A DNA stretch of 64,000 nt, taken from NCBI RefSeq assembly GCF_024398015.1, contig NZ_CP073747.1, positions 310,001 through 374,000 on the forward strand, read 5' to 3'. Position 1 is the stretch's first letter; every line of letters begins with the position of its first letter. This DNA comes from Kordiimonas sp. SCSIO 12610 (GTDB lineage: Bacteria; Pseudomonadota; Alphaproteobacteria; Sphingomonadales; Kordiimonadaceae). Below, piece after piece: positions 17,066 through 30,291 of the stretch. A model generated the notes under the pieces. That model saw nothing but the letters and a program-made list of their open reading frames with translations. It searched no databases and was not told where the DNA came from. A program made the translations under genes and the position numbers.

Positions 17066-17467
17066 TTAAACTGGGTTTATCGTTGCTTGTACGACGAAGA
17101 TATTAACTTTCTCACCGTCAAGCCGCCTTGCAGCAAAAGGTTTCAGGTAACCTGCGATAAGGTCCGCCTGAAGTGGTTTATTCACGTCAAAATAATGCTT
17201 GGATAAAGCAATTAATGCAGAGACAAAATCCGACTTTATCTGCGGAAGGCGCTCTTTTATAGGCTCCACATCACTGGGGTCCAAAACTTCGAGAACCAAT
17301 TGTATAGTCACTTGTCCGGTAATACGCCCACGTTGATACAACGAGAATTGAATTGGATCGACCTGTATCTCTGTGGAGAAATCTTCGGCTGACTGAGCAA
17401 AGATGGTTTCATTGCCTTCGAGCAACAAATACATCGACGTAACCAATATAAGTATAAACCTGATCAT
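17066..17467 (-). CDS. Small secreted protein, possibly FliL-like
   Basis: 133 residues from the chosen ATG, which opens a hydrophobic signal or anchor (MIRFILILVTSMYLLLEGNE). The rest has the pattern VDPIQFSLYQRGRITGQVTIQLVLEV, then a helix ending in SDFVSALIALSKHYFD, and FVVQATINPV. This layout resembles alphaproteobacterial proteins loosely related to the FliL C-terminal domain, found near flagellar genes, but the match is weak and by eye. The frame is open upstream to 17569, yet those codons just translate a heptamer repeat (HIAF, HIAI), so I exclude them. Its neighbour at 17814 has flagellin-like ends. Confidence 0.55.
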   Translation of the reverse strand: MIRFILILVTSMYLLLEGNETIFAQSAEDFSTEIQVDPIQFSLYQRGRITGQVTIQLVLEVLDPSDVEPIKERLPQIKSDFVSALIALSKHYFDVNKPLQADLIAGYLKPFAARRLDGEKVNIFVVQATINPV

Positions 17468-17813: not shown

Positions 17814-20800
17814 TTAAATTAGGAGTCCGGAGCTAGGGTTGCCAGCTTGTAAACGCGCCAACGCGGTTTGGAAGTTTGCAATTTGGCTTAATGTTCTTGG
17901 GTTTACAGGACCGTCGGCATTTGCGCCTAGGCCACTTGTTAGGAGGTCACGGAAGGGGTTGAATTCTAACGAGCGATCTGCGCGCTGAATCTCGCTAATG
18001 GCGTTATCCAATTGTGAAAGTACAAACCGAGCTGTTGCCGCGTCGCGAATATTTAATGCACCATCAATGCCTAGGCCAAATGCGCCGCCTAACTCTTCTT
18101 CAGGTGATTGACTATCATCATCTGATGAATCGCCAAAAATTTCGTTTTGAGGTAACAATCGCCCTTCTGGAATTCCTAAGCGTTCAAGAGCATTTTGCCC
18201 ATCAGTACCGGCAATAAGCGTCACCGCGCGTGCATCACGTATTGTTTCAATTCGCAGCCCTTCACCTTCACTGCCACGACGTACGCTCACATCTAGGTCC
18301 CGAAAAGCTGAAATACGTATTCTGCGAGCAAGATCGTCAAAAGTATCTCCCGCTTGGATTTCAATGCGCCTTCGGGGCTCTCCTTCGACTTCGATAAAGA
18401 AGAAATCGCCTTCACGTGCAGAGGTTTGTGTTGTTATATCCCGTTGCTGAGGGGCATTAACCGTTCCTTGGGTCAACCCCAAAGTATCGAGTACTGAACT
18501 GCCTTGCTGGGTGAATGCGACACCACTAACGGCACTATCCGCTCCTGCATTAACACCGAATTGCTCTTGATCTTCAATAGCACCAGTGGATGCGTTAATG
18601 CGGGCAACAAATCCATCGTCTGCACCAATAGATGCTTCACCGCTTAATGTTCCAGCTGTAGTTCCAGCAACAAAAACATTGCCCCCTGAAATGGTTACGT
18701 CGGCTATATTATCTGTACCAGTCGTTGAAATGAATGTCGTGAAGTTTGGGTTTAACGATGTTCCGTCGTCACTAAGTCCAATTACAAAGCCATCAAGGCC
18801 TCCGGTTGTTGACCCAACAACAGTGCCAGCATTTAATCCATTTCCCTGTACTGTTCCAGAGATGACGATAGTATTCCCGTCAACTGCGATGCCAGAAATG
18901 CTGCCGCCAGCACCAAGTGCTCCCAAGTTGATAGAGCTTAATTCATTGGTCAGATTACTTGCGTCAAAACGGCGTATTACTGCTTCACCGTTTTCTTCCG
19001 AGGCGATAAGGATATTACCGTTACTGTCTGTAGTAACAGCGCTTATCTGTTCGTTAGTTGCACCGCCTATCAGATTTGAATCTTGTACTGACCCTGTTGT
19101 ACCATCCAGTCTTAGTAATAAACCATCGCGGCCGCCCCCAAAGCTTGTAGAAGCGTTGATGCTTGAGCGGGCAAAGCCACCTAAGATAATATCATTATTA
19201 CTATCCGTCGTTACAGTAAGACCGCTGGTTTCACTGAATGTATCCAATTGGAAACGAAAATTTTCTGTTCCCTGATTGGTAAAGCTGGCAACGAAAGCAT
19301 CGCCAGCGCCGTCAAAGATGTCATTTTCGACCAAGGCATTATCGGTTTGGCCAGCAATAATTACATTGTCATTACTATCAATTGTAATAGCAAAGGCATC
19401 AGCGTCCTCAGAAGAACCAAGAAGTCTGGAGAAAACAACGTTGCCCGCTTGATCAAAGCGGGTCAGAAAAACATCATTTTCTGATGCGGTATTGATTTGA
19501 TTACCAAATGACCCCGAAGAAGTGCCAACTGTAAAAATATTACCTTCACTGTCGACGGCAATACGATTGGCAGACGTTTCAGCATTAACGCGCACATCGC
19601 TATTGATATTCGTAATATCAAATATGTTTGTATCATCATCTGAATCAGCTTCTTCTGCGTCAAGCCTGTCGACCTCGTCTTGTCCCAGAACATCAATGCG
19701 AGCTTGTGCAAGGATTTCATCCCGCTGTGCTGCAATGGCGGGATCAATCTCATCTCCATCCTCATCCAAATCAGCGGTTAATTCCTGAATTTCTGTTGCG
19801 GCCAGATCAGTCGCTGCAAATGCAATCGTGTTATCTGTAGTGATTGAGCCACTAAGATTGGTAAATTCTGTAATTCGAGCGGTTGATATATCATCCCCTG
19901 CTTGTGTAACTGAAGAGCTTACAAACAGGCTGGGGGTGTTTACTGCAGCACTAAAGCGAACATCTTCGAGTAATATACCGTCAATTTCGATACCAAACCT
20001 ACCGCCTTCGCTGTTGACTTGAAAACGTGTCTGATTGTCAGAAATCGGATTGCCATCACTATCAAACGCTGGGTTCCCGTCTGAATCCAGTTGGGGTATG
20101 GCTTCGATTTGCTGGTTAATAAAGTCGACAATATTATTTAACGATAGCGTGCCAGAAACGTTTGATAGATCAATTGTAATATCGTTGGTATCAAGAATGC
20201 TATTGTTGGCTGCTGACCGCGTGCTTATCGAAACGGTAAATATTTCATTCCCGGTCAGGCCTTCAATGGCGGTATCGGGGTCGGATGCAACTAAACTCCC
20301 TTCGAAGTCACGATTGTCTGTGCCCAGGCGCGCAGTACTATCTGCCCGAAACTCACGGTCGCCCACAAAGAGATCAAGCTGATCAAGTTCGGCGGCGTTA
20401 ATAAAATTACGAACTTCGCTCAAACCTTGTTGAAATTGTTCATCAAGCCTTGCGAGTGTAACCTCTGGCGTATCTTCATCTGCTGCAAATTCTGCGAGTG
20501 TTCTCAGTCGATCAAGAGCGATAAAGGTTGCGAAGGTTGCTTGACGGTCCGGGTTGTTTTCCACGGCTTCCAGGCGGTCATCATTCAGATCAATAAACTC
20601 ACTTAACTCACGAACTTCACGAATCCTTTGGCTAAGTGATCGGGTATCTTCCTGATCAAATGGGGTTGCAATATTTTCTTCTGATATATCGAGATTTACA
20701 GCGGGTGTATTTGTATTACTAAAACGAACTGCTGCACTTAAAATATCGGCGTTAATACTTTGACCGAGAAGGTTGGCACCGATACCGATGATTGGCCGTG

Positions 20801-20873
20801 GTGCAGGGCCATTGGTATTTCCACCAAGTCCTCCAAGGAGTCCTCCTCCACCTGACAAACCAAAAAAGGCCAT
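17814..20873 (-). CDS. Large acidic protein with flagellin/hook-like ends and beta-propeller-like repeats
   Basis: 1019 residues, very acidic, almost no Cys, no signal peptide; starts with a Gly-rich stretch. Residues about 60-170 are helical with heptad character. About 195-265 and 835-915 look like flagellin hook-IN modules (for example EIQAGDTFDDLARRIRIS and RGSEGEGLRIETIRD). Between about 430 and 790 six repeats of the kind AVDSEGNIFTVG, TIDSNDNVIIAG, TTDSNNDIILGG, TTDSNGNILIAS match SBBP-type propeller blades. The C-terminal helix (ARFVLSQLDNAISEIQRADR) resembles the flagellin end. A secreted flagellum-associated protein is inferred; function is unknown. It lies upstream of the FliL-like gene on the same strand, but terminator and repeats separate them. 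Confidence 0.7.
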   Translation of the reverse strand: MAFFGLSGGGGLLGGLGGNTNGPAPRPIIGIGANLLGQSINADILSAAVRFSNTNTPAVNLDISEENIATPFDQEDTRSLSQRIREVRELSEFIDLNDDRLEAVENNPDRQATFATFIALDRLRTLAEFAADEDTPEVTLARLDEQFQQGLSEVRNFINAAELDQLDLFVGDREFRADSTARLGTDNRDFEGSLVASDPDTAIEGLTGNEIFTVSISTRSAANNSILDTNDITIDLSNVSGTLSLNNIVDFINQQIEAIPQLDSDGNPAFDSDGNPISDNQTRFQVNSEGGRFGIEIDGILLEDVRFSAAVNTPSLFVSSSVTQAGDDISTARITEFTNLSGSITTDNTIAFAATDLAATEIQELTADLDEDGDEIDPAIAAQRDEILAQARIDVLGQDEVDRLDAEEADSDDDTNIFDITNINSDVRVNAETSANRIAVDSEGNIFTVGTSSGSFGNQINTASENDVFLTRFDQAGNVVFSRLLGSSEDADAFAITIDSNDNVIIAGQTDNALVENDIFDGAGDAFVASFTNQGTENFRFQLDTFSETSGLTVTTDSNNDIILGGFARSSINASTSFGGGRDGLLLRLDGTTGSVQDSNLIGGATNEQISAVTTDSNGNILIASEENGEAVIRRFDASNLTNELSSINLGALGAGGSISGIAVDGNTIVISGTVQGNGLNAGTVVGSTTGGLDGFVIGLSDDGTSLNPNFTTFISTTGTDNIADVTISGGNVFVAGTTAGTLSGEASIGADDGFVARINASTGAIEDQEQFGVNAGADSAVSGVAFTQQGSSVLDTLGLTQGTVNAPQQRDITTQTSAREGDFFFIEVEGEPRRRIEIQAGDTFDDLARRIRISAFRDLDVSVRRGSEGEGLRIETIRDARAVTLIAGTDGQNALERLGIPEGRLLPQNEIFGDSSDDDSQSPEEELGGAFGLGIDGALNIRDAATARFVLSQLDNAISEIQRADRSLEFNPFRDLLTSGLGANADGPVNPRTLSQIANFQTALARLQAGNPSSGLLI

Positions 20874-29652: not shown

Positions 29653-30291
29653 TTAGCCAGTTGGGTCACTATCCTGCGCGGGAGAAACTAAACCTGTAAA
29701 CAATGCTGATAGGCTATTGAAATTGTTATCAGGTGCTGTGCTCAAATTGCTTTGGAAAAGATTGATCAGGTTCCGTTCAATGCCTCGCGCTCTACCGTTA
29801 CCGCGGGCGAGGCCCGGTGGAAGGTCCCGGTTTGCTTCACTGTCAATTGCACTTTCTAGTCCTGTGCCTTCAAGAGCGCGACTTAGGACTGCGCGCTCTG
29901 GCCTTGAAAGGTTGCTTGTTTCTATGATGTTTGCGATTTCGGTGCGGAATTGATCAAGCCGTGAAGGCTCATTATCAGCCTCTGTGACGTTAATAGTTGG
30001 ATCATCGTTATCGATTGGTGCAGTGACCACTCCATCAGGCGCGCTTTCAATCGCGACAACATCAGGTTCATCCACAGGGGGCTGTGTGATTGTTGAAGTA
30101 TCAGTGTCCTCTGTAATTGCCGTTTGTGCGTCTTCAGACAATGATACGACGACGGCTGGTGAGGCTTCTGTTGTTTCAGTTGCGGGCTCATCTTCTGGTG
30201 TGTTTTGGCTTTGATTCGGAAACGAAACATTTGTAACATTGATCAAAGGAGCGTTTGTAAACGGACCAAATGAAATACCGTTAAATGCCAT
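29653..30291 (-). CDS. Acidic protein of unknown function
   Basis: 212 residues. The start at 30291 has a near-perfect Shine-Dalgarno sequence (AAGGAGG, nine bases away); an earlier start would not. Begins MAFNGISFGPF. Residues about 30-110 are low complexity, rich in Thr, Glu, Asp, Val and Pro, and likely disordered. The C-terminal 90 residues are helical and include LSRPERAVLSRALEGTGLES and a DLPPGLARGNGRARG motif, ending LFTGLVSPAQDSDPTG. No Cys, no signal peptide. Its upstream region shares sequence with that of the 1019-residue gene. Function unknown; secretion by a non-Sec route is possible. Confidence 0.65.
   Translation of the reverse strand: MAFNGISFGPFTNAPLINVTNVSFPNQSQNTPEDEPATETTEASPAVVVSLSEDAQTAITEDTDTSTITQPPVDEPDVVAIESAPDGVVTAPIDNDDPTINVTEADNEPSRLDQFRTEIANIIETSNLSRPERAVLSRALEGTGLESAIDSEANRDLPPGLARGNGRARGIERNLINLFQSNLSTAPDNNFNSLSALFTGLVSPAQDSDPTG

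Follow-up and report, generated by a model that had tools for sequence, protein, structure and literature searches.

A seven-bladed propeller between hook-IN modules and flagellin-like ends: a probable flagellar axial protein, and possible filament cap, of Alphaproteobacteria lacking FliD

Results

A large acidic protein with flagellin-like ends

The window analysed here, a 64,000-nucleotide stretch of the Kordiimonas sp. SCSIO 12610 genome (contig NZ_CP073747.1, positions 310,001 to 374,000; coordinates below count from its first letter), carries on its minus strand a single uninterrupted open reading frame (ORF) at 17814-20873, whose 1019-amino-acid (aa) product, here called the propeller protein, we interpret as a probable exported flagellar axial protein bearing a propeller. 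The first-pass annotation had listed this ORF without a strand; it proved real, and the plus-strand frame over the same interval contains many stops. The same annotation had called the product very acidic and without a signal peptide, and this was borne out, as the isoelectric point is 4.05 (162 aspartate plus glutamate residues against 58 arginines and no lysine) and no signal peptide was seen by eye or by hydropathy. The genome holds one copy of the gene. Searches of this protein alone against Pfam and NCBIfam gave no flagellar call, and a match to XopO (E 0.23) was set aside as noise.

An AlphaFold model built from a 42-sequence alignment (predicted local distance difference test, pLDDT, 82.2; predicted template modelling score, pTM, 0.76) begins with a low-confidence N-terminus, followed by helices up to residue 160 and a hairpin. 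Two beta modules, each with one helix, then flank a propeller, and the chain ends in C-terminal helices. The N-terminal segment (residues 1-66, 20676-20873; all segments lie on the minus strand) has a pLDDT below 50 and a possible helix at residues 33-52. Profile-profile comparisons were made with HHalign, using column-shuffled (30) and reversed profiles as controls. Residues 115-172 (20358-20531), which form helices and a hairpin like those of the flagellin D1 domain, scored 44.5 against a 37-row flagellin alignment (E 3.7e-6; shuffled profiles at most 14.2, reversed 13.0). At the other end, a helix at residues 933-970 (17964-18077) resembled the C-terminal D1 helix of flagellin more weakly (score 25.9, probability 14%; shuffled profiles at most 15.1, reversed 13.9), and the last modelled helix (residues 992-1010, 17844-17900) would be D0-like by its position. 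The flagellin-like ends suggested by the first-pass annotation are thus firm at the N-terminus and less so at the C-terminus. Pfam called neither Flagellin_N nor Flagellin_C in the protein, and among 43 family members Flagellin_N was found once, weakly (0.01).

Two hook-IN modules lie inside these ends. The first (residues 186-312, 19938-20318) is supported by HHalign and a fragment model; its residues 211-311 scored 35.1 against a profile of 30 Flagellin_IN loci (E 6e-6; best shuffled control 13.2). The second (residues 816-890, 18204-18428) scored 57.5 against the same profile (E 3e-10; best of 30 shuffled 14.0). These regions overlap those in which hook-IN similarity had been proposed by eye (195-265 and 835-915). 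Pfam was silent on Flagellin_IN in the protein itself, but called it in one homologue (L088) at 0.008, and the propeller slice was negative against the Flagellin_IN profile (12.8 versus 13.5 for the control). An internal duplication of the two modules is not claimed, as HHalign gave a probability of 3% for one against the other.

The propeller occupies about residues 313-356 (19806-19937), where the first strands were placed by a VIA alignment to CylK, and residues 431-792 (18498-19583), supported by Pfam, a PDB sequence match and the model. Between them an acidic helical insertion (residues 357-430, 19584-19805; alignment and model), longest in members from the family to which the window belongs, breaks into blade 1. 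A hand count from the model gave 29 strands over 313-792, corresponding to seven blades, where at least six SBBP blades had been counted before. Pfam SBBP matched the protein at E=4.6e-7, and the propeller matched CylK both in sequence (E 1.1e-22) and in structure (VIA Z 41.7, root-mean-square deviation 2.2 over 362 aligned residues spanning 313-770). Among family members SBBP was found in 40/43 at E <= 1, and the NCBIfam model of the Leptospira LipL53 type matched 41/43 (best 3.2e-41), the protein of the window itself being unmatched. Tyr37 and His391 of CylK, which are mutated according to PDB entry titles, cannot persist here because the protein has no histidine or tyrosine. CylK, SBBP repeat proteins and LipL53 are not known to have flagellin ends. 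Of the 50 rows listed by Foldseek for the whole model, most were propellers; one, a flagellum chain from Geovibrio ranked 30th (E 9.8e-6, TM 0.13-0.16), was discounted as evidence.

From N- to C-terminus the protein thus comprises flagellin-D1-like helices, a hook-IN module, the seven-bladed propeller, a second hook-IN module and a helix that resembles flagellin more weakly. When the fragment 66-312 was modelled alone (pLDDT 89.8, pTM 0.52), the first 13 VIA ranks were all flagellar (FlgK, FliD of several species, flagellins, and junction and cap complexes; Z 7.0-8.4), with FliD chains at Z 7.1-7.8 among ranks 2-11; the weight of this result is that all top rows come from one kind of machine, not the size of Z. 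The protein shares with FliD (HAP2) a hook-IN-type outer module and a profile match to the IN motif (E 9.3e-6), but it has no FliD_N or FliD_C match at E <= 10, its ends are not FliD-like and it carries a propeller. Flagellinolysin has flagellin-type ends and a large domain inserted in its outer region, and in this the propeller protein is similar; it differs in that its insert is a propeller, with no metallopeptidase match in Pfam, the ends are too divergent for Pfam, and it forms a widespread family of its own.

A conserved family

A full-length relative in the same genus was 75% identical and others in the family 46-53%; the homologue of Kordiimonas sediminis (51%) was the sole result of a scan of genome contigs. 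Matches were found in 77/147 genomes of the order to which the window belongs. A search of the class Alphaproteobacteria with one diverged member gave matches in 38/385 genomes, 25 of them strong (E of 1.3e-27 or less). The 13 weaker rows, most of which are limited to the propeller or to some short segment, were left out of the counts below; two of them (G401, 1.6e-20; G368, 2.5e-14) are spread over several parts and are probably true members, and both genomes have fliF and no FliD row. In plasmid searches, matches extending beyond the propeller were confined to Sphingobium V4 and Erythrobacter aureus. Aligned members (alignments of 43 and 42 sequences) share the domain order over about 880-1045 aa. 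The protein thus belongs to a conserved alphaproteobacterial family and is not a local chimera. Several genomes of one genus (L085 and L086 of G021; genus g26 of family f8) carry in addition a diverged further copy, about 1020-1077 aa long, and some of them have neither fliF nor flhA.

Composition suggests export

Lysine, cysteine, tryptophan, tyrosine and histidine are all absent from the propeller protein, and methionine occurs once. Two flagellins of the same genome share this alphabet, and lysine is absent from FlgK (704 aa), an FlgL-like protein and FlgD, present once in FlgE and FlgG, and present 13-22 times in FliF, FliG and FlhA; a third flagellin has three lysines if read from an upstream start. 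Among 237 background ORFs of 200 aa or more from 20 sampled stretches, none was free of lysine (0/237) and none lacked all five residues (0/237). The lowest lysine in this sample was found in RTX-like repeat proteins, presumably secreted; one stretch (L206, 2346-14634) has three adjacent such proteins with 0.14-0.25% lysine. The mean residue cost was 19.9 for the propeller protein versus 23.4 for the background, and only 1/237 ORFs was lower. Extracellular proteins tend to avoid costly residues, and this one does so to an extreme degree.

Lysine content was then compared across 21 genomes, namely that of the window and 20 others drawn from the 70 order genomes that have the propeller gene and fliF, picked among those whose propeller protein sequence was available; the composition of the propeller protein had been seen before this comparison, that of FlgD and FlgE had not. 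The lysine fraction of the propeller protein followed that of FlgD (rho 0.88, p 1e-7) and FlgE (0.63, p 0.002) and not that of FliG (0.04), and for the 13 genomes that belong to the window's family the values were 0.92, 0.70 and 0.30, respectively. Neither these correlations nor the exclusion tests below were corrected for phylogeny beyond a family-level count. Because the protein is free of lysine and its lysine content follows FlgD and FlgE rather than FliG, it is very probably exported.

The window encodes a second protein of this kind (29653-30291, minus strand), acidic, 212 aa long and built from the same 15 amino acids, with all five residues named above missing and one methionine. Pfam gave nothing for it at E <= 0.01, and upstream lies a sigma-54-like site matching 9 of 12 positions, a score reached by 8/232 control genes; judged by sequence, it is a candidate exported flagellar protein. 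A 425-aa lysine-free protein, likewise unmatched in Pfam at E <= 0.01 (L098, 18626-19903), is encoded close to the main flagellar genes of the same genome.

Genomic surroundings differ between lineages

The first-pass annotation had asked whether flagellar genes lie near homologues, and the answer was positive for several lineages of the class and negative for the window's own order. On the Erythrobacter aureus plasmid and the 1.25-Mb plasmid of Sphingobium V4 the family gene lies between fliG and flgB, and flagellar genes were present in 7/20 class stretches (L059, L062, L066, L067, L069, L075 and L077), the neighbours being fliG/flgB, flgJ/flgI or flagellins. A flagellin lies roughly 13-16 kb from the family gene in G147 and also in G150, the genome that supplied L069. 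The flagellar clusters that accompany the family gene on sphingomonad plasmids (L022, L023, L024 and L175) are extensive. The Erythrobacter aureus gene spans the start of its record and is annotated only as a fragment, hypothetical.

The flagellar genes of the Kordiimonas genome itself are at about 1.49, 2.18 and 2.57 Mb. Directly downstream of the propeller gene is a small FliL-like gene (17066-17467, minus strand) whose product has, by eye, a signal-like N-terminus, and a member of the same neighbour cluster occupies this place in 13/20 order loci. PF03748 matched 6/13 members of the cluster at E <= 1 (best 2.5e-4), that of the window being unmatched, and a profile of the small genes found the genome's own FliL at 2e-7.

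Propeller family and FliD rarely share a genome

Among the 112 genomes of the order with fliF, 70 have the propeller family, 37 have FliD, none has both and five have neither. The distribution in the class was similarly complementary: the 225 genomes with fliF comprised 23 with the propeller family, 78 with FliD, none with both (P 2.9e-5) and 124 with neither, the last being an upper bound because the weaker rows were dropped. Counted by GTDB family, 14 had the propeller family and 51 had FliD among 123, with no overlap (P 3e-4). In G053, a member of family f5, the propeller family is present and FliD_C gave no match; a weak FliD-profile match (0.0036) to a 114-aa frame in its stretch L091 was taken as noise.

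The Kordiimonas genome has proteins of the rod, hook, hook cap, junction and filament, among them FlgD, FlgE, FlgK, an FlgL-like protein and flagellins, and gave no FliD_C match. A FliD profile likewise had no match in stretches L022-L024, L175 and L176 from Sphingobium and Erythrobacter, including one of 42.6 kb from Sphingobium, while it detected 22/30 positive-control loci, and the gene table of the Erythrobacter plasmid, which is incomplete, lists no fliD in the parts examined. In Caulobacter vibrioides, a control genome, fliF is present and FliD_C unmatched.

Holders of the propeller gene generally have fliF (70/77 in the order and 23/25 strong class genomes, versus 225/385 overall). Damaged copies are found in two genomes of the order that lack both fliF and flhA, frameshifted with two stops in G051 and frameshifted in G101. 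We mention this decay only as a remark, since the copy in G084 is intact.

Discussion

The protein described here is likely, with good confidence, to be exported as a flagellar axial protein, and the route would presumably be the flagellar type III apparatus. The idea of the first-pass annotation that flagellin ends serve export and the propeller is cargo is supported as regards the ends and export, but not as regards a one-off chimera carrying cargo: since the family is conserved, occurs in flagellar clusters and nearly excludes FliD, a structural role at the filament fits better. Because the other axial parts were found in this genome and FliD was not, the filament cap is by elimination the vacant post, and given the exclusion of FliD and the FliD/FlgK-like module, a cap is the most economical account. 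We therefore favour, at about even odds (a probability of roughly 0.5), a protein that acts as the filament-tip cap in FliD's stead. It would be exported unfolded through the type III apparatus and assemble on the filament via its flagellin-like helical ends; the two hook-IN modules, which have the fold of the outer domains of FliD, FlgK and flagellin, would bear the propeller as a head, most likely at the filament tip, where it would take over the capping job.

Several observations weigh against this proposal. On composition, freedom from lysine is not universal among exported flagellar proteins (FlgF has 5 lysines and FliK 8, as called), low lysine is also seen in RTX-like proteins, so that composition marks export and not the route, and the non-axial FliF also trends with the lysine fraction (rho 0.40, p 0.07; 21 genomes). 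On similarity, an end-to-end comparison with 10 FliD sequences found only the IN motif, the helical ends being not significant, and homology to FliD is therefore not established; VIA Z values of 7-8 for the N-terminal fragment are modest and can arise by chance, and the best Foldseek match of this fragment, to FlgK, had an E of 0.0093, none reaching 0.001. On gene context, flagellar genes were near the family gene in 0/20 loci of the order (31 Erythrobacter queries), and no canonical sigma-54 promoter was present within 250 bp upstream of the propeller gene, where the flagellins and FlgK of the same genome have sites with 10-11 of 12 matches. On distribution, 124/225 class genomes with fliF matched neither protein, so a genome need not have the propeller protein to lose FliD. 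Both proteins occur in G103, a draft genome (69% complete, without fliF), and when the weaker rows are included, 38 in all for the class, G012 and G209 have FliD beside propeller-family matches of about 66-146 residues. As 37/38 FliD genomes of the order belong to family f5, lineage history may account for part of the exclusion, which within the order is close to one event. Finally, 7/77 order genomes with a match lack fliF, six of them also flhA; G084, with neither, retains an intact copy, and G174 has the propeller gene and flagellins with neither fliF nor flhA. Four points keep our estimate for the cap near one half: ends that resemble flagellin and not FliD, the lack of both proteins in 124 genomes, the absence of a sigma-54 promoter and the holders without fliF.

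The flagellin-like ends suggest the most probable alternative, namely an exported axial protein other than the cap, such as a specialised minor flagellin or a subunit of the junction zone, its propeller serving to decorate the filament or to bind a surface or glycan. We consider it a possible reading, but doubtful. The N-terminal D1 region is flagellin-like and not FliD-like, flagellin genes adjoin the family gene in L075 and L077, and enzymatic flagellins with inserted domains are reported to exist (PMC5595980). Pfam, on the other hand, recognises no flagellin domain at either end, the window's genome has one copy, near-exclusion with FliD would be unexpected for a decoration, and the junction proteins FlgK and the FlgL-like protein exist separately.

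A second alternative is a regulator of the FlaEY/FlaQ type that tunes flagellin expression, its export or secretion being part of a checkpoint. In PMC8921679, FlaEY is called a possible regulatory protein and shares a Sphingomonas gene cluster with FlbD, FliX and FlbT, and an FlaQ mutant is cited as altering fliC expression. The propeller family occurs in comparable clusters of sphingomonads, and on this likeness in setting it may be FlaEY. The role named there for these proteins of Caulobacter and Sphingomonas is regulatory, and the passages on them do not mention such an architecture. A regulatory role is nevertheless improbable for the propeller protein, as no DNA- or RNA-binding domain was among its Pfam and NCBIfam matches, its composition and domains fit an external axial protein, and a change in expression could arise indirectly from faulty assembly. 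Still less probable is an extracellular SBBP propeller protein with no flagellar role that acquired flagellin-like ends as an export signal, for although the gene is far from flagellar genes in the order and intact in G084, its holders are enriched in fliF and the copies in G051 and G101 are frameshifted.

FliD is described as required for the formation of flagella (PMC5072837), is reported missing in Rhizobiaceae and in Phaeobacter (PMC6913195 and PMC12363192), and its gene is listed in a review on Brucella (PMC8781033). Neither a flagellin-ended propeller architecture nor a cap role for one was found among the matches listed in searches of open-licence PMC literature. Returning to the proposed cap, we suggest, tentatively and with somewhat less confidence than for the single protein, that many Alphaproteobacteria have swapped FliD for a flagellin-scaffold cap topped by a seven-bladed propeller, which would explain how filaments are completed in those relatives of Caulobacter that have no FliD. 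If the family does replace FliD in motile lineages, filament capping there would become directly testable. Even the weaker reading alone would add to the flagellum an exported part that is not modelled as flagellar in either Pfam or NCBIfam, and the lysine-free signature offers a cheap way to seek other exported proteins in this lineage.

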